Source: Alienimonas californiensis
Lineage (GTDB): Bacteria; Planctomycetota; Planctomycetia; Planctomycetales; Planctomycetaceae
DNA length: 64,000 nucleotides
Assembly (NCBI RefSeq): GCF_007743815.1
Contig: NZ_CP036265.1
Span: 1,514,501 to 1,578,500 of the forward strand
Reading direction: 5' to 3'
Within the stretch, counting starts at the first letter, position 1; the number at the start of each line of letters is the position of its first letter. Positions 18,662 through 60,342 of the stretch are shown here, piece by piece. A program made the translations under genes and the position numbers. Under the pieces are notes generated by a model that made no database searches, was not told where the DNA came from, and saw only the letters and a program-made list of their open reading frames with translations.

Positions 18662-19846
18662 TCAGCCCCCCGCCCACTCGCTGGCGGCCTGGCGGGCGCG
18701 GGCGGGGTCGGTGGTGCCGGTGACGATCACGCGGCCGTCGGCGAAGATCGTCACCTCGCCGGGCGGGCCGTCGGCCTCCAGCGGGGGCGTCTGGACCGCG
18801 GCCAGAAAGCGATTTGCCCGCACCGCCCCCTCCCCCGCCGCCAGCCGCCAGCGGGTTGCGAGCGATTCCAAATCAATGCTCGCCCCGCCCGGGGGCGCGG
18901 CCAATTGCACCCCGCCCCGGCCGCACAGCGTGGCGCTGCCGGCCCCCCGCCCGCCCCGCAGCCACAGGCGTTCGCCCCCGTCGGCGCCAGGAACCCCGCC
19001 CGCCCGCCCGCCGCCGCACGCCGGGCACTCGCCGCTTTCAAACAGCGCCCGCGTGCCCACTTTGCGCACCGTCCCGGCCCAGGCGTCGATCATTAATAAA
19101 TGCGGGTCTGCCAAGAACCCAGCGCCGCCCTCGTTGAGTCCGCCGAGGATCTTCAGGGCGAACCCGGCGGCGAAGCTCGCCGCGATATTCACCGCCGGCA
19201 GGATCACGCCGGCGGTGTCGCAGGTCTCCGTCTCCCCCGGCGGCGGCGGGTCCGGCAGCACGCACCGCAGGCAGGCCGTCCGCCCCGGCAACACGGGCAT
19301 CGCCCGCCCCCCGCCGCCCACCGCCCCGCAATAGACCCACGGCACGCCGGTCTCTAAAGAGAGGTCGTTGAGCAGGTAGCGGGCCTCGAAATTATCGCTG
19401 CCGTCCAACAGCAGCGTCGCCCCCTCGGCGAGGCGTTCAATATTGCCCGCCGTCACGTCCTCCACCCGCGGGTCGAGGGCGACTTCGCTATTAATCCTCG
19501 CCAGCCGCTCCGCCGCGGCGATCGCCTTGGGCGTGCGGGCCGCGGCGTCCGCCTCCGTATAAAGCGTCTGCCGGGCCAGGTTGGAGAGTTCCACGAAATC
19601 CCGGTCGACCGGCCGCACCCAGCCGCCGAATTCTTTTAATCCCACGCCGGCCCGCACCAGCGTCTCGGCCAACGCCGAGCCCGTCGCCCCGCAGCCGACG
19701 ATCAACACCCGCCCCGCCGCCAACCGGGCCTGACCGGCCGCCCCCAGCGGGGCGAACCGGGCCTGCTTGCGGTAACGCCCGGCCAAGATCGCCCGCTCCG
19801 CCCCCGGCTCGAACGACGCGGCGGCGGGGTCGGGGGGAACGGGCAT
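18662..19846 (-). CDS. ThiF/MoeB/HesA-family E1-like adenylyltransferase
   Basis: 394 residues from ATG 19846. A longer frame exists upstream but has no conserved sequence. The nucleotide-binding Rossmann motif is V50-G-C-G-A-T-G56, followed by DRDFVELSNLARQ (81-93), the E1 signature that binds ATP and Mg. LLLDGSDNFEARYLLND is present, as is TCDTAGVILP at the position of the acceptor cysteine. Zinc-type Cys pairs appear at CLRC and CPAC. It adenylates the C-terminal Gly-Gly of a ubiquitin-like sulfur carrier (thiamine, molybdopterin or related). An extra 90 residues after the zinc site are an added domain common in planctomycete members. No ThiS/MoaD gene is adjacent. Confidence 0.85.
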   Translation of the reverse strand: MPVPPDPAAASFEPGAERAILAGRYRKQARFAPLGAAGQARLAAGRVLIVGCGATGSALAETLVRAGVGLKEFGGWVRPVDRDFVELSNLARQTLYTEADAAARTPKAIAAAERLARINSEVALDPRVEDVTAGNIERLAEGATLLLDGSDNFEARYLLNDLSLETGVPWVYCGAVGGGGRAMPVLPGRTACLRCVLPDPPPPGETETCDTAGVILPAVNIAASFAAGFALKILGGLNEGGAGFLADPHLLMIDAWAGTVRKVGTRALFESGECPACGGGRAGGVPGADGGERLWLRGGRGAGSATLCGRGGVQLAAPPGGASIDLESLATRWRLAAGEGAVRANRFLAAVQTPPLEADGPPGEVTIFADGRVIVTGTTDPARARQAASEWAGG

Positions 19847-20087
19847 GGGCGACGAAATCCGGGTTTTTCCGGCGGGCGGAACGGTTTCGGAGGTCCGGAA
19901 CGAAACGGGCGGAAACCCCGCCGGGCGGGGCGGACGGGCCATTCTCAAACATTTGCGGCGTTCGGCCACCGATCGGCCGGACCCGTCTTCCCGCCCGCCC
20001 GCCGCCGCCCCACAATGCCGCTGCACAGATTAGTGTACACGCAAACACTTAAGCCCTGCTGAACCCCTTCCCTGAAAGCCTTTGCCG

Positions 20088-20405
20088 ATGTCCGTCGTCA
20101 CGTCCCGCGGGACGAAAACCCTGTTGCCCCGCCGCGATCCCGAGCAGTTCTGGAACAGCGTGCGGGCCGAGTACGCCGCCGAGGACCGCCGCCGCTGGAA
20201 GAGCCTGGCGATGCTGGCCCTCACCGAGGCCGTCGGCTGGCCGCCGGACCGCGTCGCGTTGGCCTTCGGCCTGACCCGCCGCCAAGTGAACCGCGGCGTC
20301 GACTCCACCCGCCGCTCCCTCCAAACCCGCTTCCGCCCGGACTGGGACGGGGACGACGAAAGCGGAGGGGCGAAGGCGGAGGGCGGAAGGAACGAGCACG
20401 CATAG
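20088..20405 (+). CDS. small helix-turn-helix protein at head of phage-like block
   Basis: 105 residues from ATG 20088; a TTG two codons earlier is possible. Residues 41-80 (LALTEAVGWPPDRVALAFGLTRRQVNRGVDSTRRSL) form a predicted helix-turn-helix resembling sigma-region-4 or small phage DNA-binding domains. The last 15 residues (SGGAKAEGGRN) are translated from the dispersed purine-rich tract, so the original stop was probably lost to repeat insertion. It is the first gene of a plus-strand run with ParB-fold, ATPase, terminase and portal genes and could be their regulator or a DNA-recognition partner. Confidence 0.65.
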   Translation: MSVVTSRGTKTLLPRRDPEQFWNSVRAEYAAEDRRRWKSLAMLALTEAVGWPPDRVALAFGLTRRQVNRGVDSTRRSLQTRFRPDWDGDDESGGAKAEGGRNEHA

Positions 20406-20455
20406 CCCATCCCCCATCCCCAATCCCCAATCCCCAATCCCCAATCCCCAATCCG
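20355..20455. repeat. purine tract plus heptamer tandem repeat
   Basis: A GCGGAGGGGCGAAGGCGGAG-type tract (20360-20392) is followed from about 20416 by at least five head-to-tail copies of CCCCAAT. The array ends just before the ParB-fold gene at 20467. Simple heptamers like this change copy number by slippage. Confidence 0.8.
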
Positions 20456-20466
20456 CCTCACAAAAC

Positions 20467-21111
20467 ATGCTGCTCGAACATCTCCCGCTCTCCTCTCTCA
20501 AGCCCGCCCCGCACAACCCGCGGATCGCGTTGAAGCCCGGCGACGCCGGGTGGCGGAAGCTCGCCGCCAGCGTGCGGGCCTTCGGGCTCGTGCAGCCGCT
20601 CGTTTATAACCGCCGCAGCGGCCTGCTGGTGGGCGGTCATCAGCGGTTGGAAGTGCTGAAGCACGACGCCGCCGAGCACGGCGGCCCCGACACGGCCCCC
20701 TGCGTCGTCGTCGACCTGCCGGACGCCGAGGAAAAGGCCCTCTGCATCGCCCTGAACAACGCCGACGTCGGCGGGTCCTGGGACGGCCCCAGGCTGGTCG
20801 ACCTGCTGGGCGAACTCTCCGCCGAGGCCCTGAAGCCGGACGCCGACTTCGACGCCGCCCTCACCGGCTTCGACCCGAAGCAACTCGACGCCCTGCTGAT
20901 GACACCCGCCGGCCCGGGCGGATGTCTCCCGATTGACTCCAGCGTGACTTCTACTGACTCCCAGAAAGGGCACGCCGACGAGACCGGCCCGCGGCCGGTC
21001 GCCGTGGCGCTGGAGGTTCCGGCGGACCGCTGGCCGGCCGTGCGGCCGGACCTCGACGCCCTGGTCGGCGATCACGACCTGACGGTGCACGTCACCGGGG
21101 CACCGGACTGA
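20467..21111 (+). CDS. ParB/Srx-fold nuclease-like protein
   Basis: 214 residues. The N-terminal 120 residues show the ParB-like fold: LSSLKPAPHNPR, then FGLVQPLVYNRRSGLLVGGHQRLEVLK with the G-G-H-Q-R nucleotide-pocket motif, and EKALCIALNNADVGGSWD. The ALNN...GSWD sequence is usual in phage and mobile-element ParB-like proteins next to terminases. The C-terminal 65 residues are an unconserved linker and a small domain. Bases 20922-20972, coding GCLPIDSSVTSTDSQKGH, contain the cassette's inserted GGGAGTCA/GGGAGACA motif. It probably binds or nicks DNA during packaging or replication. A hairpin (GGCGGGC/GCCCGCC) at 21120-21137 follows. Confidence 0.8.
   Translation: MLLEHLPLSSLKPAPHNPRIALKPGDAGWRKLAASVRAFGLVQPLVYNRRSGLLVGGHQRLEVLKHDAAEHGGPDTAPCVVVDLPDAEEKALCIALNNADVGGSWDGPRLVDLLGELSAEALKPDADFDAALTGFDPKQLDALLMTPAGPGGCLPIDSSVTSTDSQKGHADETGPRPVAVALEVPADRWPAVRPDLDALVGDHDLTVHVTGAPD
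20922..20972. repeat. cassette motif site 1, in ParB-fold gene
   Basis: TGTCTCCCGATTGACTCC here is the reverse complement of GGAGTCAATCGGGAGACA. A further TGACTCCC follows 20 bases later. It lies in a poorly conserved linker of the protein. Confidence 0.7.
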
Positions 21112-21186
21112 ACACGCTCGGCGGGCTGACGCCCGCCGCTCGCCTCCTCCCCCATCACCCCTCTCTCCTCACCCCCACCGGACCCC

Positions 21187-22608
21187 ATGCGAATCACCGT
21201 TTCGCACCCGCTGCGCCCCCGTCGGCGGAGCCTGAACACCGCCCGGGTGGCGGCGTCGTTCGGGCTGGACGTCGACCCGACCGACCGCCTCACCGTCGCC
21301 GAGAACCTGCCCGTTGAGGCCGGCCCCGGCCGGATCACGCTGTTCACCGGGCCCAGCGGGTCCGGCAAGAGCACCCTGCTGCGGGCCGCCGCCGACCGCC
21401 TCGAAGCGGACGGCCGGCCCGTCGTGCGGGCCGACGACCTCGCCCTGCCGGACCGCCCGCTGGCGGACGCGTTGCCGCTCGGCTTCGACGCCGCCTGCGC
21501 CCTGCTTTCCAAGTGCGGACTGGCCGAACCCCGCCTGCTGCTCCGCACCCCGGCAGAGCTGAGCGAAGGCCAGCGCTTCCGCTTTCGCCTGGCCCTCGCC
21601 GTCTGCCTGGCCCGCCTGAGCGACGAACCGGGGGCGGTCGTCTGCGACGAGTTCGCCGCTGTGCTGGACCGCACCCTCGCCGCGGCGGTGGCCCACAACG
21701 TCCGCCGACTGTGCGCGGCGACCGGGGTGGGCTTCCTGCTGGCGACCACCCACGAGGACCTCGCCGCCGACCTCGCCCCGCACCACGCCGTCCGCTGCCG
21801 CTCCGCCGGTCCGCCGCGCTCCGACGCCGCCGAATTTGAGGAGCACGAACGCCCCCTCGCCGGCCGCCGGCGGCTGGGGCCGCTGTTTGCCGACGACGAT
21901 CTCGACGGCCGGATCTCCTTCGCCGGGGACCTGTTCCTCACGACCGCCTCCCGCGGCGACTGGCCGGCGTTCGCCGACTGGCACTACCGCGCCCACACCG
22001 TCGGCATCGTGCGATTCGGCGTGATGCTGTGGCACGGGAGTCAGCCGGGAGTCAGAAATGCGTCAGACGAGAGTCCGCATGAGGCGGAGCCGGTGGGGAT
22101 TGCGTTGTTCTGCTCGCCGCCGCTGTCGCTGCGAGGTCGCAACCAGTACTTCGGCTCTGGCGCGCGGTGGACTTCGGCGGGCCTCAAGGCGATGAACGCC
22201 CAACTGGTGACGCTCGCCCGGGTCGTGTTGCACCCGACGTATCGGGGGTGCTCGCTGGCGGCCCCGTTCGTCGCCGCCGCCTGCGACGCCTGCCCCTTTC
22301 CGTGGGTGGAGAGCCTCACCCAATTAGGCCAGACGCACCCGTTCCTGGAGCGGGCCGGGTTCGTCAAGGCGCCGGTCGATCCCCCTGCGAAACGGGGGAG
22401 CAGGCCGAACGACCTCCGCCAGCACAGCGCGATTTACGGGGCCGGCGGGCGGGGGAAGAAAAAGGGCACGCTCTCCGCCGCCTCGCACGCCAAAAGTCGC
22501 TACGCGGCCCCGGCGTATTTCATTCGCGACAACCGCTCCGCCCCCGCCGTGCTGGAGGCGAACCGCCGCGACCGCCGTCGGCAGGAACTGGAGGCGTGCG
22601 ATGACTGA
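21187..22608 (+). CDS. ABC-type ATPase fused to GNAT-like acetyltransferase domain (COG2401 type)
   Basis: 473 residues. Residues 1-210 are an ABC ATPase without membrane segments: Walker A GPSGSGKST (55-63), signature LSEGQ (125-129), Walker B VVCDEF (151-156) and an H-loop ATTHED. Residues 240-470 resemble an acetyltransferase fold (WHYRAHTVGIVRFG, LARVVLHPTYRGCSLAAPFV, VESLTQLGQTHPFLERAGF). Such fusions occur beside terminase and ParB genes in phages and mobile elements, but their reaction is not established. The gene overlaps the next by eight bases. The cassette motif is inserted at 22035-22054, in the linker after VGIVRFGVMLWHG. Confidence 0.8.
   Translation: MRITVSHPLRPRRRSLNTARVAASFGLDVDPTDRLTVAENLPVEAGPGRITLFTGPSGSGKSTLLRAAADRLEADGRPVVRADDLALPDRPLADALPLGFDAACALLSKCGLAEPRLLLRTPAELSEGQRFRFRLALAVCLARLSDEPGAVVCDEFAAVLDRTLAAAVAHNVRRLCAATGVGFLLATTHEDLAADLAPHHAVRCRSAGPPRSDAAEFEEHERPLAGRRRLGPLFADDDLDGRISFAGDLFLTTASRGDWPAFADWHYRAHTVGIVRFGVMLWHGSQPGVRNASDESPHEAEPVGIALFCSPPLSLRGRNQYFGSGARWTSAGLKAMNAQLVTLARVVLHPTYRGCSLAAPFVAAACDACPFPWVESLTQLGQTHPFLERAGFVKAPVDPPAKRGSRPNDLRQHSAIYGAGGRGKKKGTLSAASHAKSRYAAPAYFIRDNRSAPAVLEANRRDRRRQELEACDD
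22035..22054 (+). repeat. cassette motif site 2, in ATPase-GNAT gene
   Basis: GGGAGTCAGCCGGGAGTCA, a near-perfect direct copy of the motif found in the terminase and portal genes, coding GSQPGVR. Confidence 0.7.
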
Positions 22609-23011
22609 CCACAGCCCCCAAAGCCCCTTCGGCGCCGGCCTCGACGAGGAGCCGGAGGACCCGCTCGCCCCGACCTCGCTGACGGCGGAGCAACGGGCCG
22701 CGGTGGTGCGGGCACTGACCGCCGGCGCCGCCCCGCAGAAGGCCTGCGCCGACGCGGGGGTCGACCCGCTGTCCTTCTTCGCCGCCCTCGCCGAGGACGC
22801 CGAACTCGCCGTGCAGATCGGCCGCTTGGACGTCATGCGGAGCCTGAACGTGCTGGCGATCACCTATCAAAAGGCGTTGTCCGGCGCCTCCGCCGATCGC
22901 AGCCTCTATTTAAAGTTCCGCCCGCCCCCGCCGGCGGCGCCCGTGGACGAGGAGACCTGCGAACTGGACGGCCCGATGGGCGCCTCGGACGAGGAGCAGT
23001 GGAATGTCTGA
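22601..23011 (+). CDS. putative small terminase subunit
   Basis: 136 residues, overlapping the genes on both sides by eight bases (ATGACTGA and ATGTCTGA). Residues 25-60 (LTAEQRAAVVRALTAGAAPQKACADAGVDPLSFFAAL) read as a helix-turn-helix typical of small terminase subunits that recognise packaging sites. The central part is helical and the C-terminus acidic. The call rests on position directly before the large terminase, size and the HTH; sequence similarity to a named TerS family is not evident by eye. Confidence 0.6.
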   Translation: MTDHSPQSPFGAGLDEEPEDPLAPTSLTAEQRAAVVRALTAGAAPQKACADAGVDPLSFFAALAEDAELAVQIGRLDVMRSLNVLAITYQKALSGASADRSLYLKFRPPPPAAPVDEETCELDGPMGASDEEQWNV

Positions 23012-24560
23012 CCTCATCCTTTCCCAAAAAACTTCCCCGCCGCGTCGGTACGTTTATACAAAGTCCCGCCTGCGGCGGGAGCGGGCCCGCCGCCGGGCGG
23101 CGCGGACGGCGGCACAGTTAGAAGCCGCCGCGGCGGACCCGCGCGAGTTTCGGGCGGCGCTGCGGTTGGACGCCGGCGGGCCGACGCTCGGGGAGGCGGC
23201 GTTGCCATGGCAGCGCAGCGATTTCGTCGCGCTGGACCCGGCCTGGTGCCGGGTCGCGGGGACGCCGCTGCCGGCCGGTTATCATGCGCCCGATCCGCCG
23301 CTCGGCCGGGTGTGGCTGGAGCGGCCGCGGGGGCATAGCAAAACGGCGGATACCGCGGTCATGCTGGCCTGGGCGCTGCGGTTCGCCCGCCGCCCGATCC
23401 GCGGGGTCGTCGCGGCGGCCGATCGGGATCAGGCGGGGCTCGTGCGGTCGGCGCTGGCGGGGCTGGTGCGGGCGAACCCGCAGTTATTAGGCGAGTTAAA
23501 GATCGGGGCGACACGGATCGTCCACCCGGCGAGCGGCGCCCGGCTGGACGTGATCAGCGGGGACGTGGGCAGCAGTTACGGGCTGACGCCGGACTTCGTG
23601 ATCTGCGACGAACTCTGCCACTGGTCCGACGCCGGGCTGTGGCACTCGCTGCTGTCGAGCGCGGCGAAGACTCCCGGTTGTCTCCTGATTGTCCTCACGA
23701 ACGCCGGCTGGGGCCGCGACTGGCGGTGGACGGCTCGGGAGGCGGCGCGGACGCGGCCGGACTGGCTGTTCCGCCGGCTGCCCGGCCCGTCCGCCCCCTG
23801 GGTGACGCCCGCGGCGCTCGCGGAGCAGCGGGCCCTGCTGCCCGCGCCGGTGTTCGCCCGGCTGTGGCTGAACGAGTGGCAGGCGAACTCCGCGGCGGCG
23901 TTCTTCACGCCCGCGGAGGTCGCCGCCTGCGAGGTCGCCGGGCTGGAGGTGCACCCCGCCGGCCGCCCCGGCGTGCGGTACGCCGCGGGAGTGGATTACG
24001 GCGAGAAGCGCGACCGAACCGCCTGCTGCGTGGCCCATCGCTGCCCGCGGAGCGGGCGGATCGTCGTCGACCGGCTGGACGTCGCCGCCCCCGCCCCGGA
24101 CCGGCCGGTGCCGGTTGCGTGGGTGGAGCGCTGGATCACGGAGGTCGCCGCGAAGTACCCCGGCGTGCGGGTGGTGGCGGACGAATACCAGCTCGCCGGG
24201 CTGACCCAGCGGCTGGCGGGGCGGGTACGCGTCGAACGCTTCGCCTTCGCCGCCGGGCGCGGGAATGACGACCTCGCCCGCGCCCTGCGGACCGCGGTGT
24301 ACGGCGGCCGCCTCGCCTTCCGGCCGGGGGCCGGGTCCGTCGGGAGTCAACCGGGAGACACGCCGGAGACAACCGACGATCTCGCCGCCGAACTGCGGTC
24401 GCTGGAACTGGTCGAGCGGCCCGGCGGGCGGGTGCGGTTCGACCATCCCTCCGGCGGCCACGACGACCGGGCCTTCGCCCTCAGCCTGGCCGTCTGGGCG
24501 CTGTCCGACGACCGCCCGGCCGGCCCGGAGCCGCTGTTCGTGTCCTCCCCGGCGTTCTGA
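23004..24560 (+). CDS. phage-type terminase large subunit
   Basis: 518 residues. The ATPase half shows a terminase-style Walker A, RPRGHSKT (107-114), Walker B FVICDE (198-203) and coupling motif LTNAG (231-235). The nuclease half has the RNase H-like acidic residues D331 (AAGVDYGEKRDRT), D393 (VVADEYQ) and D487/488 (HDDRAFALSLAVWA). All catalytic positions look intact, so the motor should be functional. It would cut and pump DNA into a procapsid through the portal. Two cassette motif sites lie within it (23669-23693; 24341-24378, coding VGSQPGDT). G+C is host-like. Confidence 0.92.
   Translation: MSDLILSQKTSPPRRYVYTKSRLRRERARRRAARTAAQLEAAAADPREFRAALRLDAGGPTLGEAALPWQRSDFVALDPAWCRVAGTPLPAGYHAPDPPLGRVWLERPRGHSKTADTAVMLAWALRFARRPIRGVVAAADRDQAGLVRSALAGLVRANPQLLGELKIGATRIVHPASGARLDVISGDVGSSYGLTPDFVICDELCHWSDAGLWHSLLSSAAKTPGCLLIVLTNAGWGRDWRWTAREAARTRPDWLFRRLPGPSAPWVTPAALAEQRALLPAPVFARLWLNEWQANSAAAFFTPAEVAACEVAGLEVHPAGRPGVRYAAGVDYGEKRDRTACCVAHRCPRSGRIVVDRLDVAAPAPDRPVPVAWVERWITEVAAKYPGVRVVADEYQLAGLTQRLAGRVRVERFAFAAGRGNDDLARALRTAVYGGRLAFRPGAGSVGSQPGDTPETTDDLAAELRSLELVERPGGRVRFDHPSGGHDDRAFALSLAVWALSDDRPAGPEPLFVSSPAF
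23669..23693. repeat. cassette motif site 3, in large terminase gene
   Basis: ACTCCCGGTTGTCTCC, the reverse complement of GGAGACAACCGGGAGT, followed by TGATTGTC. It sits close to the conserved LIVLTNAG segment, so part of the match may be constrained by coding. Confidence 0.45.
24341..24378 (+). repeat. cassette motif site 4, in large terminase gene
   Basis: GGGAGTCAACCGGGAGACA followed by CCGGAGACAACC, in a variable loop between the nuclease motifs (coding VGSQPGDTPETT). Confidence 0.75.
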
Positions 24561-24704: not shown

Positions 24705-26126
24705 ATGTTCACCTTGTTCAAAGACGCTCTCGCCGCCGCGGCCCTCAAAGCGAAGGGGGATCGGCTGGCCCGAGAGCGGGCCGTCGCGCTGCTGGAAGGC
24801 GCCGGGCGACCGTCCGCCTATTCGCTGAACGACGCCGCCCCGTCCGCCGACGCCGGCTGGGCGGAGGTGGGAACGGCCCGCCCCTCCCGCAGCGCCCCGG
24901 GGCGGCTGTCGGCGGCGGAAACCCGCGTCGCCGCCCGGGAACTCGCCGCGGAGAACCCGTATGCCAAGAACGCCCTGCGGGTGTTGGAGGCGTACGTCGT
25001 CGGCCCCGGGGCAACGCTCTCCCACGCCCGCCGGCCGACTTCTGCGGGAGTCAACCGGGGAGACAATGACTCTCTGCCGGGAGACAAGGAGTTGCGAGCC
25101 CTGTGGCGTCGCTTCTGGGAGGCGAACGGGCCGCACGTCACGCTGGGAGAGTTGGCGGTGCGCGTCTGGCGGGACGGCGAGGCCTTCGTGCGGTTCTTCC
25201 CCCGTCACGGCCTGAACGGGGGAGCCGGGGACGTGCCGGCGGCGCGGTTCCTCGATCCGGAGGAGATCGGCCCGACGCGGGAGCGGCCGGACGGGCTGGG
25301 CGTGCTGACGGACCCGGCGGACGCCGTCACGCCGGTGGCGTACCTGCGGATTGACCCGACCAGCGCGGAGCACGTGGAGACGATCCCCGCCTCCGAAGTG
25401 CTGCACGTGAAGGCCGGGGCGGACGACGCGGAGGTCCGCGGCGTAAGCGTGCTGGCCCCGCTGATCGCCCCGCTGACGCGGCACGCCGAATGGCTCGAAA
25501 CGGAACTGACTGCCCGGCGGGTGCAGGCCTCGGTGGTGCTGTGGCGTAAGGTGCAGGGGAACGTGAGCGCCTACGGGGACACCGACGGTGCGGCCGGCGA
25601 TCTGGCCGGGGCGCGGGCGGACCGGGGGGTGTTCGCCCCCGGTTCGATCCTGACCACGCCGGACACCACGAACCTGGAGTTCCTCGCCCCGAAAAGTAGC
25701 TTTGCGGAAGCGAGTCAGATCGGCCGGGCGCTGCTGCTGGGGGCCGCGGCGGGGGTGGGGCTGCCGGAGTTCATGCTGACCGCCGACGCCTCCAACGCGA
25801 ACTACGCCAGCACGATGGCGGCGGAGGGCCCGGCGGTGAAGCGGTTCGCGGCGGAGCAACGCTTCTTCGCCGCCGCCCTGGCCCGGCTGTGGGCGCTGCT
25901 GGCCGCCGACGCGGTCGCCCGTGGGGTTCTGAGCGAAGCGGCCGTCGCCGGGTTGGCGCCGGAGTTCACCTTCGCCGAGCTGGCCCACCGCGACCGCCCG
26001 GCCGAACGCGGGGCCGACGTGCAGCTGGTCCGGGCCGGCGTGCTGAGCCGGGCGGAACTGGCCCGGCGGGAGGGCGTCGACCCGCAGCGGATGCGGCGGG
26101 AGCTTCAGGCGGAGGTCGGCGAGTAA
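24705..26126 (+). CDS. lambda-type phage portal protein
   Basis: 473 residues. It has the order of lambda gpB-type portals: a helical N-terminus, AETRVAARELAAENPYAKNALRVLEAYVVGPG, an LWRRFWEAN wing helix, ASEVLHVKAGADDAEVRGVSVLAPLI (the conserved H...RG.S...P core), then ASQIGRALLLGAAAGVGLPEFMLTADASNANYASTMAA, the highly conserved portal stretch. The C-terminus ends in RAELARREGVDP. The dodecameric portal would join terminase to the capsid vertex. The cassette motif (25045-25087) codes AGVNRGDNDSLPGDKE in a loop. No capsid gene follows here; the matching ones lie inverted at 48.8-51.6 kb. Confidence 0.88.
   Translation: MFTLFKDALAAAALKAKGDRLARERAVALLEGAGRPSAYSLNDAAPSADAGWAEVGTARPSRSAPGRLSAAETRVAARELAAENPYAKNALRVLEAYVVGPGATLSHARRPTSAGVNRGDNDSLPGDKELRALWRRFWEANGPHVTLGELAVRVWRDGEAFVRFFPRHGLNGGAGDVPAARFLDPEEIGPTRERPDGLGVLTDPADAVTPVAYLRIDPTSAEHVETIPASEVLHVKAGADDAEVRGVSVLAPLIAPLTRHAEWLETELTARRVQASVVLWRKVQGNVSAYGDTDGAAGDLAGARADRGVFAPGSILTTPDTTNLEFLAPKSSFAEASQIGRALLLGAAAGVGLPEFMLTADASNANYASTMAAEGPAVKRFAAEQRFFAAALARLWALLAADAVARGVLSEAAVAGLAPEFTFAELAHRDRPAERGADVQLVRAGVLSRAELARREGVDPQRMRRELQAEVGE
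25045..25087 (+). repeat. cassette motif site 5, in portal gene
   Basis: GGGAGTCAACCGGGGAGACA followed by ATGACTCTCTGCCGGGAGAC: two tandem imperfect units inside the reading frame. Confidence 0.75.
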
Positions 26127-48432: not shown

Positions 48433-48663
48433 TTACGGCGTCGGGCCGGTCAGCCATTTGCGGAGGGCGTTCAGGGCCGTGGCGGCGGCGGCGGCGAGGG
48501 CCCCGCCCAGGGCGGCGCCGGTCTCCAGGTTCGGCAGGACCTCCGTGCTGAGGTACGCCAGAATCGCCCCGCCGGCCGCCAGCGCGGCGCCGCGGAGGAT
48601 CTTCAGCCCGTCCGCCGCGTTCAGGCGGAAACGCGGGGAGGGGACGGTCGCTGTGGTGTTCAT
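48433..48663 (-). CDS. small membrane protein, holin-like, at end of capsid block
   Basis: 76 residues from ATG 48663. One or two hydrophobic helices (GAALAAGGAILAYLSTEV and GAALGGALAAAAATALNAL) are followed by a basic tail (RKWLTGPTP). Size and shape resemble phage holins or small capsid-associated membrane proteins, and it is the last gene of the capsid block. No endolysin gene is near. A different role in the envelope is equally possible. Confidence 0.5.
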   Translation of the reverse strand: MNTTATVPSPRFRLNAADGLKILRGAALAAGGAILAYLSTEVLPNLETGAALGGALAAAAATALNALRKWLTGPTP

Positions 48664-48674
48664 GGGATCGGTCG

Positions 48675-48790
48675 CTTTGGAAAGAAGGCGGAGGGGGGAG
48701 GGCGGAAGGCGGAAGGGGAGACGACGGTCGGGGGGCTGCGGGGCGACGCTTGCGCGTCCCCTCCGCCCTCCGCCATCCCCCTTCCGAAAT
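48675..48790. repeat. purine/pyrimidine tracts between holin-like and capsid genes
   Basis: AAGAAGGCGGAGGGGGGAGG (from 48683) and CCTCCGCCCTCCGCCATCCC (from 48759) are inverted with respect to each other, as at 18.55-18.66 kb, suggesting the tract family moves or arises as inverted pairs. Confidence 0.55.
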
Positions 48791-48794
48791 CGAT

Positions 48795-50027
48795 TCAGCC
48801 GCCGAGGACCTTGGTGACGAACGCGGTGTCCGTGGCGGAGACGCCGCCGAAGTAGCGGGCCTTCACCCGCAGGGCGACGTCCCGCTCGAACGCCGCCGGG
48901 CCGTCGCTGCGCTGCAGGAACGTCTGCACGGGCCAGACCTCCGTCCACACGAACTGCTTGCGGAAGTCGCCCAGGTACCAGTCCCGCCGGCCCTCGGCGC
49001 CCAGTTCGTCCAGGAAGGGGCTCGACAGCACCTCCAACCGCCGGTGCGGGTTGCCGGAGACGGTCGTGGTCCCGTCGACCGTGCGGCGGATCTCCGTGGC
49101 CTCGACGATGCCGCGGGCCGTGCCGGCTAGGCTCTCCGGCACGAGGACCTGCGTCGCCGGGGCGAGGATCGGGCGGCGCTGACCGTCGACTCTGTCGTCC
49201 AGAACTTCCGTCGCCCGGTAGCCGCGGGCGGCGTCCAGGGCGGCCCAGTCGTCCAGCGGCAGGGCGCTCGCGTGGGTCGGGCTGGTCGTGTTCGCGGGGC
49301 CGATCAGATTTCGGTTCGAGCCGTCCGCGGCGTACAGCGTTTCGCCCACGCCGCCGGGGCGATAGACCGGCTTGCCGGGCTCCGCGTCGGCGACGGCCCG
49401 CACGATCGTCCGCTCGCGCTCCTGCCGCAGCCCCTCGCCCAACCGGACGGCCCGGCGGAAGACTTCGCCGGTCTGGTCGAAGGCGATCAGCTCCTCTGTG
49501 ACGGAGAGAATGCGGCCCTGTTTGCTCTCCTCCGAGGTGACGAACTTCTCCGCGAAGGTGCTCTCCTCGTACTTGTGACCCTCGGGGATCGTCGTGGGGC
49601 TGGCGGTGGCGGTGAAGCCGGCGATCTTCGCCCCCCGCCCGGTCGCCTTCACGACCGTGACCAGCGCATCGCCGATCAGCCCCGCGGCCGCGTCGTAGCC
49701 CTCGGCCACCTTGCGGGCCAGCAGTTCGGCGGTGACGACGCGGAACAGATCCGTGCGGGCGCCGGGGGCGTGCTCGCTCAGCAGGGCGACCGGCGCCCGG
49801 TCCGGGCCGGCGGCGGCCTCGCGGAGCGCGGCGAGCCCGTCGCTCACGCCGCGATCGCCCGGTCCCCCGAACGACGGGCTGCCGAAGATCCCGCAGGCCT
49901 CGGCGAGGCGGCGGAGGCTGAAGTCGTCGGGGGTCAGCGTGCCGGCGGTCAGCAGGTCGCGGGTCTTCTCGTAGAAGGCGGCGGGGCCGAGGGAATCGAT
50001 CAACCCGGCCAGGTCGGTGCGTTGCAT
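48795..50027 (-). CDS. phage-like major capsid protein
   Basis: 410 residues from ATG 50027. HK97-fold major capsid features by reading: a helical N-terminus (TDLAGLIDSLGPAAFYEKTRDLL), the SPTTIPEGHKYEESTFAEKFVTSEESKQGRILSVTEELIAFDQ segment seen in Mu/lambda-like capsid proteins, and PVYRPGGVGETLYA before a long beta-rich C-terminus. The ending WYLGDFRKQFVWTEVWPVQTFLQRSDGPAAFERDVALRVKARYFGGVSATDTAFVTKV is typical of capsid subunits. It is intact and preceded by decoration and protease genes on the same strand. It encloses DNA in phage; here the shell may serve a domesticated particle. Confidence 0.85.
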   Translation of the reverse strand: MQRTDLAGLIDSLGPAAFYEKTRDLLTAGTLTPDDFSLRRLAEACGIFGSPSFGGPGDRGVSDGLAALREAAAGPDRAPVALLSEHAPGARTDLFRVVTAELLARKVAEGYDAAAGLIGDALVTVVKATGRGAKIAGFTATASPTTIPEGHKYEESTFAEKFVTSEESKQGRILSVTEELIAFDQTGEVFRRAVRLGEGLRQERERTIVRAVADAEPGKPVYRPGGVGETLYAADGSNRNLIGPANTTSPTHASALPLDDWAALDAARGYRATEVLDDRVDGQRRPILAPATQVLVPESLAGTARGIVEATEIRRTVDGTTTVSGNPHRRLEVLSSPFLDELGAEGRRDWYLGDFRKQFVWTEVWPVQTFLQRSDGPAAFERDVALRVKARYFGGVSATDTAFVTKVLGG

Positions 50028-50083
50028 GGAGAAACCTCTGTCTGAGAGATGAGAAGGGGGAACAGGACGGCGCCGCAGCGCGG

Positions 50084-50566
50084 TCAGCTGGGGCCGAGCG
50101 CCTTGGTGGTGTTGGCGGCGGGGCTGTAGACGGAGGCGAACGCGGCCCGGACGACGGGGGCGTCCGCGGCGGCGGTCTCCAGCGCCAGCCCCACCGCCGA
50201 GGCCCGGCTGCCCGTCGGGGCGAGCAGGTCGTCGGACAGCTCGCCACCGGCGTCGGCCGGCGCCAGCCCCGCGCCGAACGCGCACCCGCCCGCCTCCAGC
50301 GCGGGGGCGTAGACGGCCAGCGGGCTGAGATCCACGGAGACCATCTGGCTCACGCCGGCCTCCGCGGCGGAGTGGGCCACGCCCAGGAACACCTCCGCGA
50401 ACACGCTGCGGGTCGCGTCGACGTCGCCCGCCCAGGGCGTGCCGGAGGGCGGACGGATCGCCGACCCGAACAGCCCCACCAACATGCCGGGGCGGATCGT
50501 GAACGCGGGATCGCTCGGAACCCGCACCAACTGCGTCGGGCCGGTGCGGTAGGACAAAACGGACAT
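50084..50566 (-). CDS. putative capsid decoration/head-stabilising protein
   Basis: 160 residues from ATG 50566 (a TTG lies two codons earlier). It is beta-rich and Ala-rich: YRTGPTQLVRVPSDPAFTIRPGMLVGLFGSAIRPPS, TRSVFAEVFLGVAHSAAEAGV, DLSPLAVYAPALEAGGCAFGAGL, ending AFASVYSPAANTTKALGPS. Position between protease and capsid genes matches that of the lambda gpD-type decoration gene, and the start (small beta barrel with V-x-R-P-G-M-L) fits. The call depends mainly on gene order. Confidence 0.6.
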   Translation of the reverse strand: MSVLSYRTGPTQLVRVPSDPAFTIRPGMLVGLFGSAIRPPSGTPWAGDVDATRSVFAEVFLGVAHSAAEAGVSQMVSVDLSPLAVYAPALEAGGCAFGAGLAPADAGGELSDDLLAPTGSRASAVGLALETAAADAPVVRAAFASVYSPAANTTKALGPS

Positions 50567-50636
50567 GATCAAAACTCTTTCGTGGAGAGTAAAAGGCTGG
50601 GAAATGACGGGGGACGCCGGGAGAGGAGCCGCCGGA

Positions 50637-51611
50637 TCAGGCGCCGCGGACGGCCCGGACGAGTAGGGCGCCGCGGTCCGGTCCGGTCGCCGCGGGCCGC
50701 GACCGGCTCACGGGGCCGCGGGGCCAGACGTCGGCGGAGGGGTCGTCCGGCGGGCGGACGATGCGGAGCCGCTCCAGCACGGCGACGCGGTCCTCGGCGA
50801 GGGCGCGGCGCTCGGCGTCGGTCGCGGCGGCGGCCAGGGCCCGCCGGAACGTCGGCGTCGCCGCCCAGCCCGGCAGGCCGACCTCCTCGATTGCCGCGTC
50901 CGCCGCCGCCTGCGCCGTGCGTTCCCGCCGCAAACGGGCGACCTCGGCCTGAGCTTCCGCCAGTTCCTCGCGGAGTTGCTGCGAGTCCGTGTCTCCCGTG
51001 TTGTCTCCCGATTTGGGAGACAGTGACTCCCGCAGCCGGGAGACGGTCGCGGGGAAGGCGACGGCGTCGACGGAGAGCACCTCGCGGATCGCGGTCACGG
51101 CGGAGCCGTCGGCGGTGCGTTCGGCGAGCACCACGTGGCTCATCCCCACCCGCGGGGCGGCGCCGGCGGCGTCGCCGGCCGCCAGGGCGAGGAAGGTGCG
51201 GCCGGCGTCGGTGTCCAACGCGGCCACGTCGCCCCGCAGTCGGCCCTCCTCGAACCGCACGGCCCTCACGCTGCCGACGTAGTCCCGGGCGCTGCGGCCG
51301 CGGTCCGCGGGGCGGCCGGTCGGGGCGGCCGGGGCGTGGTCGAGGAAGACCGGCGCCCCCTCGTACAGCGGGGCGGCGGCCCGCAGGACCGCTTCGGGGT
51401 AGGCGTAGCCGTTGCGGGAGGTCGTCCCGCACAGGGCCACGCCGCGGACCACGCGGGCGGCGGCGTCGATCGCCTCGCCGGTCGGGCGCCAGTCGGCGAT
51501 CCGTTCGGTCAGCGGTTCGGGACTCCGATCGGAATCGGGCGGTTTGGATTCGGTCGCAGGTTCGATCACGGGTTTGCTCGGTCGGATTCGCTCGGGGGCG
51601 GGCCGCTTCAA
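50637..51611 (-). CDS. prohead protease with C-terminal scaffold
   Basis: 324 residues from TTG 51611; GTG 51569 is an alternative start. Residues 55-190 have the pattern of herpes-assemblin-fold phage maturation proteases: GVALCGTTSRNGYAYPEAVL, YEGAPVFLDHAP with H92, VGSVRAVRFEEGRLRGDVA and VGMSHVV with S158, then VLSVDAVAFPATV. Residues 211-245 are a coiled coil (QQLREELAEAQAEVARLRRERTAQAAADA) typical of a fused scaffold. The catalytic His and Ser seem present. It would cut the scaffold and capsid delta domains during maturation. The linker between the parts holds the cassette motif (SPKSGDNTGDTDSQ). Confidence 0.75.
   Translation of the reverse strand: MKRPAPERIRPSKPVIEPATESKPPDSDRSPEPLTERIADWRPTGEAIDAAARVVRGVALCGTTSRNGYAYPEAVLRAAAPLYEGAPVFLDHAPAAPTGRPADRGRSARDYVGSVRAVRFEEGRLRGDVAALDTDAGRTFLALAAGDAAGAAPRVGMSHVVLAERTADGSAVTAIREVLSVDAVAFPATVSRLRESLSPKSGDNTGDTDSQQLREELAEAQAEVARLRRERTAQAAADAAIEEVGLPGWAATPTFRRALAAAATDAERRALAEDRVAVLERLRIVRPPDDPSADVWPRGPVSRSRPAATGPDRGALLVRAVRGA
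50990..51045. repeat. cassette motif site 6, in prohead protease gene
   Basis: TGTCTCCCGTGTTGTCTCCC, then GGGAGACAGTGACTCCC and GGGAGAC: at least four units in alternating orientation between the protease and scaffold parts. Confidence 0.75.
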
Positions 51612-52791: not shown

Positions 52792-54039
52792 CTACGCTGC
52801 TCCGCGTTCACTGCTTGGTTCTGCAGTACTGTCAGACGGTGTAAACAGCCAAGTTGGCGAAAGCACTCTCTGGATGAGCGGCATGTCGGTTTTGTCTGTT
52901 GCATTTACAATTTCGAGCGTAACGGAGTGCCAATTGCCGTCGTCGATAATTGTGATCAAATCGCCGTAAGCATCCGAGTGTCGCCGGACGTATCCATAGA
53001 GACTTGCGTTTGTCTCAGTGCGAAGATCGACGCATTGAAACCGGTGCTGCTGATCAGCAAAGCCGTAGTTGTAGTAGTCACCAAGCTGCGCCTTGACGCG
53101 AGCGATTACGGGCCCGTCCGAACCGAGCGCAAGATAAGTTTTTACCGGCACACTCCAATAGCCCACTGTGGCTTCCCATTCAACCAAGACGCGGCGGTCG
53201 TGGATATACACATAGACCACGCACTGCTGCCGGTCTTCTCCTGCGGCCACTTCGACGAGGACTCGCCATTGGTCGTCGTCCATTTGATCCATCCCTAGAA
53301 CTTGCACCTTGTCTACATTGCGTCGCACCTGCTCACCGTAGTATTTTTGAATGGTCCTTTTGAGCCGATCGCCGCCCGTCGTGAGTGGAGCTCGATCCCG
53401 AAAGGGGGTATTGAAGTACGTATAGAGGACGCGTTCGACTTCGGGCACGCAGCTGGTGTACGGCAGGGTCGATATGTCGAGATGGGAGCCCGTCATGAAT
53501 ACGGGAACGTCAGAATCAGGCAACGAGTTGAGGTCGAGAGCGGTACAACCGAGAGCGAACGCCGTACGATAGTTAGTGCCCGCAAAAACAGCGTCGTAGA
53601 AAGCCACGGCAAATTTTGCCGCAGAGTGATCACCGACGGCGGATCGCATCCCAATTACGTAGTCGATTTCGTCGCGGATCGCATCGGCTTGGATCTTTGA
53701 ATAGCAGGCATTCAGCACGACACATTTCAGATCGTCTTTGAAATGGTGAAATAGTTTGGCGAGCGGCGCAGCATCTGCGAGATGTGTGTTGCCGTTTTCA
53801 TCTTCAAAGCAAAGGCCGCCCAAGCCGCTCCCGTGGCCAGAGAAATGAACGACAGAGGGGCGGTAATCCAACATTGCCCTTCGCAGATCATCTACTGTCG
53901 CGGCTTCATTACTTTCGATCGTCCAATTCTCTCGATTTCTCGAACGCTGGAGCGAGTGTCGAATGTCGCGGAACTCGGCCCCCAGCCGCAGGCGGTCCTG
54001 ATCCAATGGGCCGGCCGATAACATGAGTACGATAGGCAT
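52792..54039 (-). CDS. caspase-like CHAT-domain protease, probably horizontally acquired
   Basis: 415 residues from ATG 54039. Residues 1-190 are a caspase-HetF-TPR (CHAT) domain: MLSAGPLDQDRLRLGAEFRDI, then VVHFSGHG with catalytic H69 and CVVLNACYSK with catalytic C112, followed by VIGMRSAVGDHSAAKFAVAFYDAVFAG. The C-terminal 225 residues match nothing recognised and are rich in Tyr/Asp/Val beta strands; they might be a sensor or effector module. The base composition (about half G+C) and codon use differ sharply from every neighbour, which implies recent transfer. CHAT proteases often act in defence or programmed death. No partner gene is adjacent, but a perfect 50-bp palindrome lies 40 bases upstream of the start. 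Confidence 0.85.
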   Translation of the reverse strand: MPIVLMLSAGPLDQDRLRLGAEFRDIRHSLQRSRNRENWTIESNEAATVDDLRRAMLDYRPSVVHFSGHGSGLGGLCFEDENGNTHLADAAPLAKLFHHFKDDLKCVVLNACYSKIQADAIRDEIDYVIGMRSAVGDHSAAKFAVAFYDAVFAGTNYRTAFALGCTALDLNSLPDSDVPVFMTGSHLDISTLPYTSCVPEVERVLYTYFNTPFRDRAPLTTGGDRLKRTIQKYYGEQVRRNVDKVQVLGMDQMDDDQWRVLVEVAAGEDRQQCVVYVYIHDRRVLVEWEATVGYWSVPVKTYLALGSDGPVIARVKAQLGDYYNYGFADQQHRFQCVDLRTETNASLYGYVRRHSDAYGDLITIIDDGNWHSVTLEIVNATDKTDMPLIQRVLSPTWLFTPSDSTAEPSSERGAA

Positions 54040-59094: not shown

Positions 59095-60342
59095 ATGACC
59101 CCGCGGTTCGCGACGATCGCCCCGACCGCCGCCGACCTCCGGGGCGGCGTGCTGCCGCTCGGCCCGCTGCGGGGCGGCCCCTGGCTGAGCGACGCCGAGA
59201 CGTTGCGGATCGAAGTCCCGACCGACGGCATTTCAGACGACGGGGCCGCCCGCCAGATCGACGCCGCCCTGTCCGGCGACGGGCCGCTGTTCGGGGAGTC
59301 GGCCCAGTCCCCGGAACTGGCTGCCTGGTATCAAGAGGCCGGCCTGACCGCCGGCGGCTCGCTGCTAATCCGGCGAATCGGCCGCGGGCGGGTGCGGGTC
59401 TCGCCGCTGGGGCCGCCGTTTCGGTTTATTGATCTGTTCGCGGGGATCGGGGGCTTCCGGCTGGGCTTTGAGGCGGCCGGGGGCGAATGCGTGTTCTCCT
59501 CGGAGATCGACGCCGACGCCTGCGACACCTACGAGGCGAACTTCGGCGACCGACCGCACGGCGACATCACCGCAATTGACGCCGCCGACGTGCCGGAGCA
59601 CGACCTGTTATTGGGCGGCTTCCCCTGTCAGGCCTTCAGCATCATCGGCAAGCGGCGGGGCTTCGAGGACACCCGCGGAACGCTGTTCTTCGACGTCGCC
59701 CGCATTCTCAAGGAACGCCGCCCCGCCGCCGCGGTCCTGGAGAACGTCAAACAATTCCGCACCCACGACGGCGGCCGCACCTGCGCCACCGTGGTGAACA
59801 CGCTGGAGGAGCTGGGTTATACGACCCACGTGACGGTGCTGAACGCCCTGAACTACGGCGTCGCCCAGCGGCGGGAACGCACCTTCATCGTCGCCCTGCG
59901 GAACGATTTAGAGACCGCCCCCTTCCGTTGGCCGGAGCCCTACCCGGAGCGGGCCGACCTGGCGGAGATCCTCGAACCGGACGACGCCGTCGCCCCGAAG
60001 CTGTGGGGCACCGAATATATCCGGGCGAAGCGTCTGGCCCGCCTACGGGAGCAGGGCAAACAGCCGATCCGCCCGTCGATCTGGCACGAGAACAAAGGCG
60101 GCCACATCGGCCAGCACCCGTATAGCTGCGCCCTGCGGGCGAACGCCAGCCACAGCTATTTATTAGTCAACGGCGAGCGCCGCCCCACCGGCCGGGAACT
60201 GCTGCGACTGCAGGGATTTCCCGACGATTTCCGCATTGCGGTGAGCCATCGGGCGCTGCGCAAACAATGCGGCAACAGCGTCGCCGTCCCGGTCATCGCC
60301 GAAGTCGCCGCCGCGGTGCGGCGGGCATTGAGGGACGCATGA
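59095..60342 (+). CDS. dcm: DNA (cytosine-5) methyltransferase with N-terminal extension
   Basis: 415 residues from ATG 59095. After about 108 extra N-terminal residues the enzyme shows motif I (FIDLFAGIGGFRLGFE, 111-126), motif IV LLLGGFPCQAFS with catalytic C178, motif VI (AAAVLENVK), motif VIII (GVAQRRERTFIVAL) and the final QCGNSVAVPVI. It makes 5-methylcytosine in a specific site, probably Dcm-like given the divergent vsr; the target cannot be read from sequence. The N-terminal part (LRIEVPTDGISDDGAARQIDAAL) may be an added recognition or EcoRII-like domain. No restriction enzyme is adjacent, so it is a solitary methyltransferase. Confidence 0.93.
   Translation: MTPRFATIAPTAADLRGGVLPLGPLRGGPWLSDAETLRIEVPTDGISDDGAARQIDAALSGDGPLFGESAQSPELAAWYQEAGLTAGGSLLIRRIGRGRVRVSPLGPPFRFIDLFAGIGGFRLGFEAAGGECVFSSEIDADACDTYEANFGDRPHGDITAIDAADVPEHDLLLGGFPCQAFSIIGKRRGFEDTRGTLFFDVARILKERRPAAAVLENVKQFRTHDGGRTCATVVNTLEELGYTTHVTVLNALNYGVAQRRERTFIVALRNDLETAPFRWPEPYPERADLAEILEPDDAVAPKLWGTEYIRAKRLARLREQGKQPIRPSIWHENKGGHIGQHPYSCALRANASHSYLLVNGERRPTGRELLRLQGFPDDFRIAVSHRALRKQCGNSVAVPVIAEVAAAVRRALRDA

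Follow-up and report, generated by a model that had tools for sequence, protein, structure and literature searches.

A phage-derived packaging cassette of Alienimonas californiensis, probably part of a dispersed gene transfer agent-like system of a planctomycete family

The stretch analyzed here is a 64,000 nucleotide segment of the Alienimonas californiensis genome (contig NZ_CP036265.1, positions 1,514,501 to 1,578,500; hereafter the window), and its subject is a phage-type DNA packaging cassette in which genes for a ParB-fold protein and for a fusion of an ABC-type ATPase with a GNAT domain lie ahead of the terminase genes. We conclude, with a probability of roughly 0.65, that this cassette forms the packaging locus of a phage particle system domesticated in a planctomycete family, most likely a gene transfer agent (GTA), that is, a virus-like particle carrying host DNA between cells. 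The strongest claim is that of domestication, a phage-derived packaging and capsid set having been kept by selection at scattered sites; a GTA is the simplest function for such a set, while carriers in which the searched tail genes were not found leave room for another. The reading is based on gene order, co-occurrence, dispersal, purifying selection, host-like divergence, retained residues of the large terminase subunit (TerL) and the fold of the GNAT domain. An initial annotation of the window had overlooked that the cassette probably belongs, as one locus among several, to a GTA-like system which is dispersed and seems to be inherited mostly vertically, with a capsid locus in the same window.

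The packaging cassette in the window and across the family

The cassette and the divergent gene beside it comprise the following features.

20082 to 20405, plus strand: small helix-turn-helix (HTH) protein of about 105 amino acids (PF13384 HTH_23, E 8.7e-4, under the cut-off)
20467 to 21111, plus strand: ParB-fold protein of 214 amino acids (PHROG_620 ParB-like, E 6.5e-31)
21187 to 22608, plus strand: fusion of an ABC-type ATPase (about residues 1-222) with a GNAT domain (about residues 237-463), 473 amino acids
22601 to 23011, plus strand: TerS-like small terminase subunit, named from its position and its conservation beside TerL
23004 to 24560, plus strand: TerL (PF03354, E 1.3e-6; PHROG_9, E 1.9e-31)
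24705 to 26126, plus strand: portal protein of the lambda family (PF05136, E 4.1e-28)
18662 to 20026, minus strand (likely start 19846): ThiF-family gene, a divergent host neighbour (PF00899, E 7.2e-56)

The ParB-like and ATPase-GNAT open reading frames lie where the initial annotation had placed them, as does the overlap of 8 bases by which the TerS-like frame, starting at 22601, runs into the end of the fusion. Its assignment of a ParB-like partner was upheld by the PHROG_620 match and by the same gene order in 47 genomes, the Pfam family ParB_N being matched below its cut-off (E 1.7e-4, 22 bits against 26.3); a match to PHROG_498, a family of ParB-containing DNA methyltransferases, was equally close (E 1.3e-30). 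The ATPase part of the fusion matched ABC_tran in Pfam over the cut-off (E 6.2e-7). The GNAT part of the window copy alone gave no Pfam match and was identified through its relatives, 11 of 51 aligned homologues matching PF13673 at E of 1 or less, and through its predicted fold, and on these grounds the proposed fusion of an ABC ATPase to a GNAT-like domain stands. The TerS-like protein matched no family at a useful E-value in the profile library scans. The small HTH protein, the opening gene of the conserved cassette, is a probable DNA-binding or regulatory protein; between its gene and that for the ParB-fold protein, at about 20407-20456, short head-to-tail repeats of CCCCAAT-like units were seen by eye.

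To survey the cassette, 170 genomes of the same family as Alienimonas were searched with the fusion, and 49 matched at 1e-15. Two of these (G250 and G355) showed weak matches to the ATPase part alone and were left out, giving 47 cassette genomes in 29 of 58 genera; G201 is the sole other genome in the set from the genus of the window genome (G000). The same fusion is also carried by A. chondri (Planctomycetaceae), with 86% identity. When the stretches around all 47 loci were mapped by gene profiles, we found HTH in 31, ParB in 34, ATPase in 46, GNAT in 47, TerS in 43, TerL in 42, an adjacent portal in 13 and ThiF in 21. The order HTH-ParB-ATPase-GNAT-TerS-TerL was kept in all 196 of 196 neighbouring pairs with no violation, and the HTH homologue was on the same strand as ParB and upstream of it in 31 of 31 loci. 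GNAT was followed by TerS in 43 of the 47 loci and TerS by TerL in 42, as the annotated coupling to the terminase genes implied, and the four loci without TerS and one further locus without TerL stop no more than 121 bases from a contig end. In the gene-neighbourhood survey that had been proposed as a check, homologues of the fusion sit with phage packaging genes. ATPase and GNAT form a single open reading frame in 10 of the 47 loci and elsewhere are mostly encoded by neighbouring frames. The link to a ParB partner held in part: where the sequence in view reached 4.5 kb or more upstream (35 loci), 27 loci had ParB and 18 had ThiF, and both therefore stand beside the cassette often, not always.

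The TerL residues checked for conservation, which we take to be catalytic, were retained almost throughout, with K113, T114, D202, E203 and D331 in 42 of 42 rows, D393 in 40 and both D487 and D488 in 39.

Head and tail genes, dispersal and descent

The window carries both loci, the cassette at 20-26 kb and, about 22 kb beyond it, a capsid locus at 48433-51611; in relatives the two are separated by 6 kb to about 3 Mb. The capsid locus has the following genes.

50637 to 51611, minus strand: prohead-protease/scaffold-like protein (family hidden Markov model (HMM), E 3.4e-84; PHROG_29592, function not known, E 6.8e-11)
50084 to 50566, minus strand: small head protein between the protease and the major capsid protein (family HMM, E 8.7e-33), decoration-like by position only
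48795 to 50027, minus strand: major capsid protein (MCP), HK97-type, 410 amino acids (PF25209 Phage_capsid_4, E 1.9e-17; family HMM, E 1.6e-170)
48433 to 48663, minus strand: holin-like small membrane protein right after the MCP (PHROG_198 holin, weak, E 0.034)

The MCP corresponds to the genome search hit G000:C1:1563301-1564548 and fits PF25209; the HK97 family PF05065 was tried as the MCP family in the window genome and gave no match. The small head protein matched nothing in the profile libraries. A relative of the protease/scaffold protein, in locus L097, had weak matches to head maturation protease and scaffold PHROGs, and holin-like homologues follow the MCP in loci L106, L108, L125 and L132.

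A portal search of the 170 genomes gave 55 matches, of which 9 weak ones were dropped, leaving 46 including a partial copy in G245 (E 1.9e-18); at the strict cut of 1e-50 there were 45 in all, 44 of them in the 47 cassette genomes. Portals that do not adjoin the cassette were found elsewhere in the genome (in locus L060 the portal is upstream of the cassette and not downstream), and part of these unlinked loci adjoin a conserved head-tail cluster with protease/scaffold, small head protein, MCP (PF25209, E 2.3e-19), neck protein (PHROG_5, 4e-6), a tape-measure-like protein of about 250-270 amino acids and other tail-cluster genes. The MCP search gave 57 matches, of which 11 weak ones (E above 1e-60) were dropped; the remaining 46 comprise 41 of the 47 cassette genomes and five genomes without a detected cassette, one (G307) 87% complete and the other four 62-71%. 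In an alignment of 14 MCP rows, identity to the first is 67-75%. Tail gene f9 was found in 33 of the 47 cassette genomes. In the window genome we thus have packaging, portal and head genes, and over the family also neck and tape measure.

The loci occur together. Cassette, portal, MCP and f9 were detected in 47, 46, 46 and 40 of the 170 genomes, and Fisher tests of co-occurrence with the cassette, in which kinship is ignored, gave p values of 1.5e-37 for portal, 2.7e-27 for MCP and 1.8e-17 for f9. They are at the same time dispersed. Among the 11 cassette assemblies of at most six contigs, to which the distance measure was limited, cassette and MCP were more than 25 kb apart in nine: 27.6 kb in the window genome, 3.4 Mb in G024 (on a 6.36 Mb chromosome), 108 kb in G105, 462 kb in G152, 71 kb in G281, 40 kb in G284, 63 kb in G285, 126 kb in G342 and 122 kb in G343, with 7.2 kb in G282 and 7.3 kb in G341. 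A collinear run from the cassette into tail genes was observed in L059, L061, L070 and L073 (L061 and L073 continuing in L134 and L133), and in other genomes the set has come apart into pieces for packaging, portal, capsid and tail that lie in different places. No integrase, repressor or replication gene was among the matches of 20 flanking and intervening proteins, two of which had no match at all; no whole-genome search for such genes was made.

Pairwise ratios of nonsynonymous to synonymous substitution rates (dN/dS) were calculated with our own Nei-Gojobori script, several pairs being saturated (dS infinite) and uninformative. For most genes and pairs dN/dS was about 0.01-0.3, with rpoB in a tighter range of 0.01-0.09, and the element genes are thus mostly under purifying selection. 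The dS values were near those of rpoB (G137-G194, 0.63-1.46 vs 0.88; G284-G285, 0.15-0.27 vs 0.29). For the window pair G000-G201 dS was 0.30-0.57 vs 0.29 for rpoB, and dN/dS was 0.16-0.24 for ATPase, GNAT, TerL, portal and MCP.

Trees were compared for those 28 of the 47 genomes (26 for MCP) whose rpoB, TerL and portal sequences had been retrieved. A tree of concatenated TerL, portal and MCP correlated with the rpoB tree at r of 0.73, a value reached in none of 2000 permutations, and 11 of 25 splits were common to both (permuted mean 0.29). Eight of 13 well-supported rpoB splits were recovered by the concatenated tree, and the portal alone recovered 10 with one contradicted. The trees and the dS values support mainly vertical inheritance, the gene trees partly following rpoB, which is a single gene.

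Seven genomes have f9 without a detected cassette (G247, G252, G288, G307, G344, G345 and G347); five of them are 62-87% complete, G252 is 99% and G344 96% complete. Glycosyltransferase genes were seen after the last tail-cluster gene, f20, in two genera (L117:17820-19669 and L134:11384-13285) and may belong to the system, for surface or tail sugars.

The ATPase-GNAT enzyme and its phage relatives

Judged from its sequence, the ATPase part is an ABC-type ATPase. Residues G55-S57-G58-G60-K61-S62, L125-S126-G128-Q129, D154-E155 and H189, which we take to be the Walker A, signature, Walker B and H-loop residues, were kept in 43-46 of 46 rows. The acyl-CoA motif of GNAT enzymes is R/QxxGxG/A, and in the GNAT part we found R117-x-x-G120-x-A122, with R in 46, G in 44 and A in 45 of 46 rows. 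A model of the GNAT part predicted from 51 sequences (pLDDT 80.3, pTM 0.76) matched GNATs, with phage Mu Mom at Foldseek rank 3 (E 7.6e-4) and at VIA-align rank 1 (Z 12.0, root-mean-square deviation 3.6 over 151 residues; next Z 11.7). As modelled, the domain belongs to the GNAT acyltransferase fold.

What this enzyme acylates can be stated less firmly. The resemblance of the model to Mom, together with an earlier prediction that ABC ATPase-coupled GNATs acylate a DNA base (PMC7824862, citing Iyer et al. 2013, NAR), leads us to favour DNA bases as the substrate, at slightly under even odds. The DNA-modification role raised by the initial annotation is compatible with the fold and with that prediction, and the role itself is one we infer. 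That the domain instead acylates protein (capsid, portal or a host protein) is a doubtful but serious alternative: the close fold rows besides Mom are mostly protein or small-molecule acetyltransferases, whereas a ParB-fold protein and a DNA-translocating terminase steadily accompany the GNAT, the ParB-fold protein is equally near the DNA methyltransferases with such a domain (PHROG_498) and PHROG_620, and the published prediction for ABC-ATPase-coupled GNATs (PMC7824862) concerns DNA bases. The setting of mom differs from the cassette, as in the 1.9 kb of phage Mu viewed com precedes mom and no ATPase or ParB gene is present.

ParB, ATPase and GNAT also form a module of phages. Viral loci were sought with short peptide patterns, which can pass over relatives. 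In the best 80 of 237, one of which (L218) is the present element, we counted ATPase in 80, GNAT in 77 and a same-strand ParB ahead of the ATPase in 59, with two ParB genes in 31; only the ParB count is independent, because the viral query included ATPase and GNAT. Salmonella phage SSU5 and Stenotrophomonas phage BUCTxx99 have ParB-ABC ATPase-GNAT in the order of the cassette, and in BUCTxx99 the module precedes the terminase as it does here. In Gordonia phage BiggityBass ParB and ATPase likewise precede the terminase, the GNAT profile having no match there. The phage module sits in whole phage genomes, whereas the planctomycete one belongs to a dispersed set that seems to be inherited mostly vertically.

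Relatives of the particle genes were sparse in viral records. When 50,697 phage records were searched at E 0.01, the MCP of G281 (L097) matched none of them, and the matches of TerL and portal to phage records were weak, the best among the matches listed having 25-30% identity over 32-44% of the protein. A scan of the 2.9 million contigs of IMG/VR, made with short peptide patterns by which relatives can be missed, gave one MCP locus, 74% identical. It lies on contig IMGVR_UViG_3300048836_001244 (L218/L297), which holds ATPase, GNAT, TerS, TerL, portal, protease and MCP of this element and is therefore probably a host fragment misclassified as virus. Among 392 genomes of the phylum, the MCP was found at E<1e-150 in this family only (15 genomes), with seven distant matches elsewhere. 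The more remote portal and MCP homologues seen beyond the family, at L053 (G167) and L211 (G041), may represent the ancestral phage or a second lineage.

Alternative readings and relation to known gene transfer agents

A number of observations weigh against a domesticated particle system that transfers DNA. The MCP was not found in six of the 47 cassette genomes, three of them 97-99% complete (G087, G244 and G245) and three 82-88% (G254, G286 and G349), which could stem from decay, from gaps or from a different role of the cassette. Fourteen of the 47 gave no match to tail gene f9 (G000, G087, G201, G233, G244, G245, G246, G256-G260, G264 and G272). In the window genome and G201 none of f9, f12 and f8 was found by searches which were positive in 40/170, 32/170 and 7/13 genomes, respectively, nor was f4, for which the search had no positive control. 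The same three genes were not found in G246, and G246, the window genome and G341, which has f9 and f12, group together on the rpoB tree. All five genomes of genus g178 (G256-G260) have cassette, portal and MCP, with f9 and f12 not found, and this genus may be a second carrier group without this tail. Between G000 and G201 dN/dS was raised for HTH (0.34), TerS (0.43) and the small head protein (0.49), and in G087-G105 it rose up to 0.53, G087 being one of the genomes in which no MCP was found. Supported splits of the concatenated tree contradicted three of the 13 well-supported rpoB splits, so that there has been some horizontal transfer or tree error. On a 60-genome rpoB tree, for which 21 cassette-less genomes were hand-picked, mostly one per genus, and in which G344 and G345 (other element genes, no cassette found) were scored as carriers, the carrier label needs 11 changes (shuffled mean 17.5, one of 500 as low); this fits early presence and many losses, with some gains by transfer possible. 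As to the enzyme, the structure prediction gave a GNAT fold, but in the window position 120 of the RxxGxA motif is S in place of G; the Mom match is tied with other GNATs within Z 1 (VIA-align, fold families listed); and direct homology to Mom was rejected on sequence, where there is no usable similarity (hhalign probability 3.1%).

Part of this would be expected if the loci were old prophage remnants, an integrated phage having been broken up by rearrangement and decaying in each lineage, and GTAs and remnant prophages do resemble each other (PMC11841831). In addition to the 14 genomes without f9, G087, G244 and G245 retain a cassette and lack a detected MCP, the portals of G244 and G245 are partial, that of G245 having a stop codon, and dN/dS in G087-G105 is 0.22-0.53. 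These three genomes are natural losses that could reveal what the cassette does alone. We nevertheless hold remnants to be quite unlikely, since gene order is constant and TerL residues are retained across 29 genera, dN/dS is mostly about 0.01-0.3 with dS near that of rpoB, and 14 MCP rows are 67-75% identical to the first, which together do not look like neutral decay. To a similarly small degree we consider that the set was domesticated for a use other than transfer, as a capsid with or without DNA, as a means of defence, or as a packaging motor for handling or modifying chromosomal DNA. Alienimonas and G246, with packaging and capsid genes and neither f9 nor f8, and the five g178 genomes without f9 and f12 would suit this explanation, as would the MCP-less G087, G244 and G245, among which TerL still has a dN/dS of 0.06 (G244-G245); against it, many carriers retain neck, tape-measure and tail genes, and the presence of f9 in 33 of 47 is as expected for DNA delivery. 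A living temperate planctomycete phage family that is still horizontally mobile appears highly improbable. The abundance of ParB-ATPase-GNAT in phages (in the best 80 of the 237 viral loci and in annotated phage genomes) and some tree conflict with rpoB speak for it, yet the loci lie tens of kb to Mb apart, the MCP is without a match in phage records, no integrase model was among the matches of the 20 neighbouring proteins scanned (two without match) and the element gene trees partly track rpoB.

If the set is indeed a domesticated particle system of the GTA kind, protease, small head protein and MCP would build an HK97-type procapsid into which TerS, TerL and portal would pump DNA. The cargo would be mainly host DNA, since with scattered genes self-packaging as a unit is hardly possible. 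The ParB-ATPase-GNAT module probably arrived with the ancestral phage. The ParB-fold and small HTH proteins would bind DNA, the ABC ATPase might serve as a clamp or loader driven by ATP, and the GNAT would move an acyl group, most likely onto bases of DNA awaiting packaging, to mark or protect it. A tail-less, reduced form is possible in Alienimonas and several other carriers because the searched tail genes were not found there. In its most specific form, which we regard as unlikely as a whole, this would be a Planctomycetaceae GTA lineage of independent origin in which ParB-ABC ATPase-GNAT acylates the bases of packaged DNA, marking or protecting it against restriction in the recipient, and of which Alienimonas retains a DNA-packing derivative without a tail.

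RcGTA and related alphaproteobacterial GTAs consist of phage-derived packaging, head and tail genes at several loci and are inherited vertically (PMC11841831, PMC7947584). By description the planctomycete system shares phage-derived genes and several loci with this type, with vertical inheritance also supported by trees and dS, and differs in belonging to another phylum, in having HTH-ParB-ATPase-GNAT before TerS and in its PF25209 MCP. BaGTA of Bartonella and the GTAs of Brachyspira, Desulfovibrio and Methanococcus are distinct from the Rhodobacter type and are held to derive from other phages (PMC11841831); again by description, the planctomycete system resembles them in being of a non-Rhodobacter type, with hosts other than planctomycetes in their case. 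The same source describes the TerS of known GTAs as being without a detectable DNA-binding domain; the planctomycete TerS-like protein matches no family, and separate HTH and ParB proteins are encoded ahead of it. The system is apparently of independent origin. We recognised no report of a planctomycete GTA in the literature searched, from which subscription papers and preprints were outside the scope, the nearest being a predicted prophage TerL from the planctomycete Zavarzinella (PMC7947584).

New GTAs are hard to find, as they resemble remnant phages and similarity to known ones is short-reaching (PMC11841831). The comparative signature used here, genes that occur together without being linked and diverge at the pace of the host, does not depend on resemblance to a known GTA. 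The analysis also yields species with more complete gene sets for testing transfer, and it places the ABC-ATPase-GNAT enzyme at a conserved chromosomal position, where the DNA of particles could reveal a new base. GTAs as such are already known; new here are, as far as the literature searched goes, the phylum, the apparent independent origin and the extra DNA-handling enzyme module, and if the reading is true planctomycetes have long owned a dedicated DNA-exchange machine.

The ThiF-family gene marks the chromosomal site of the cassette, being divergent in all 21 loci that have it, at a distance of 97-1961 bases. In the window host genes flank the cassette on both sides, the divergent ThiF on one and an FAD oxidoreductase, an isochorismatase and others past the portal, and ARAGORN found no tRNA in the 64 kb. 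Further host-type neighbours of element loci are FtsH, an NtrC-type regulator and DUF1501. Beside the capsid locus, at 52792-54039 on the minus strand, is a CHAT-domain protein (PF12770, E 7.1e-11) that may act in defence or as a protease, and a C-5 cytosine DNA methyltransferase is encoded at 59095-60342 on the plus strand (PF00145, E 6.1e-91).

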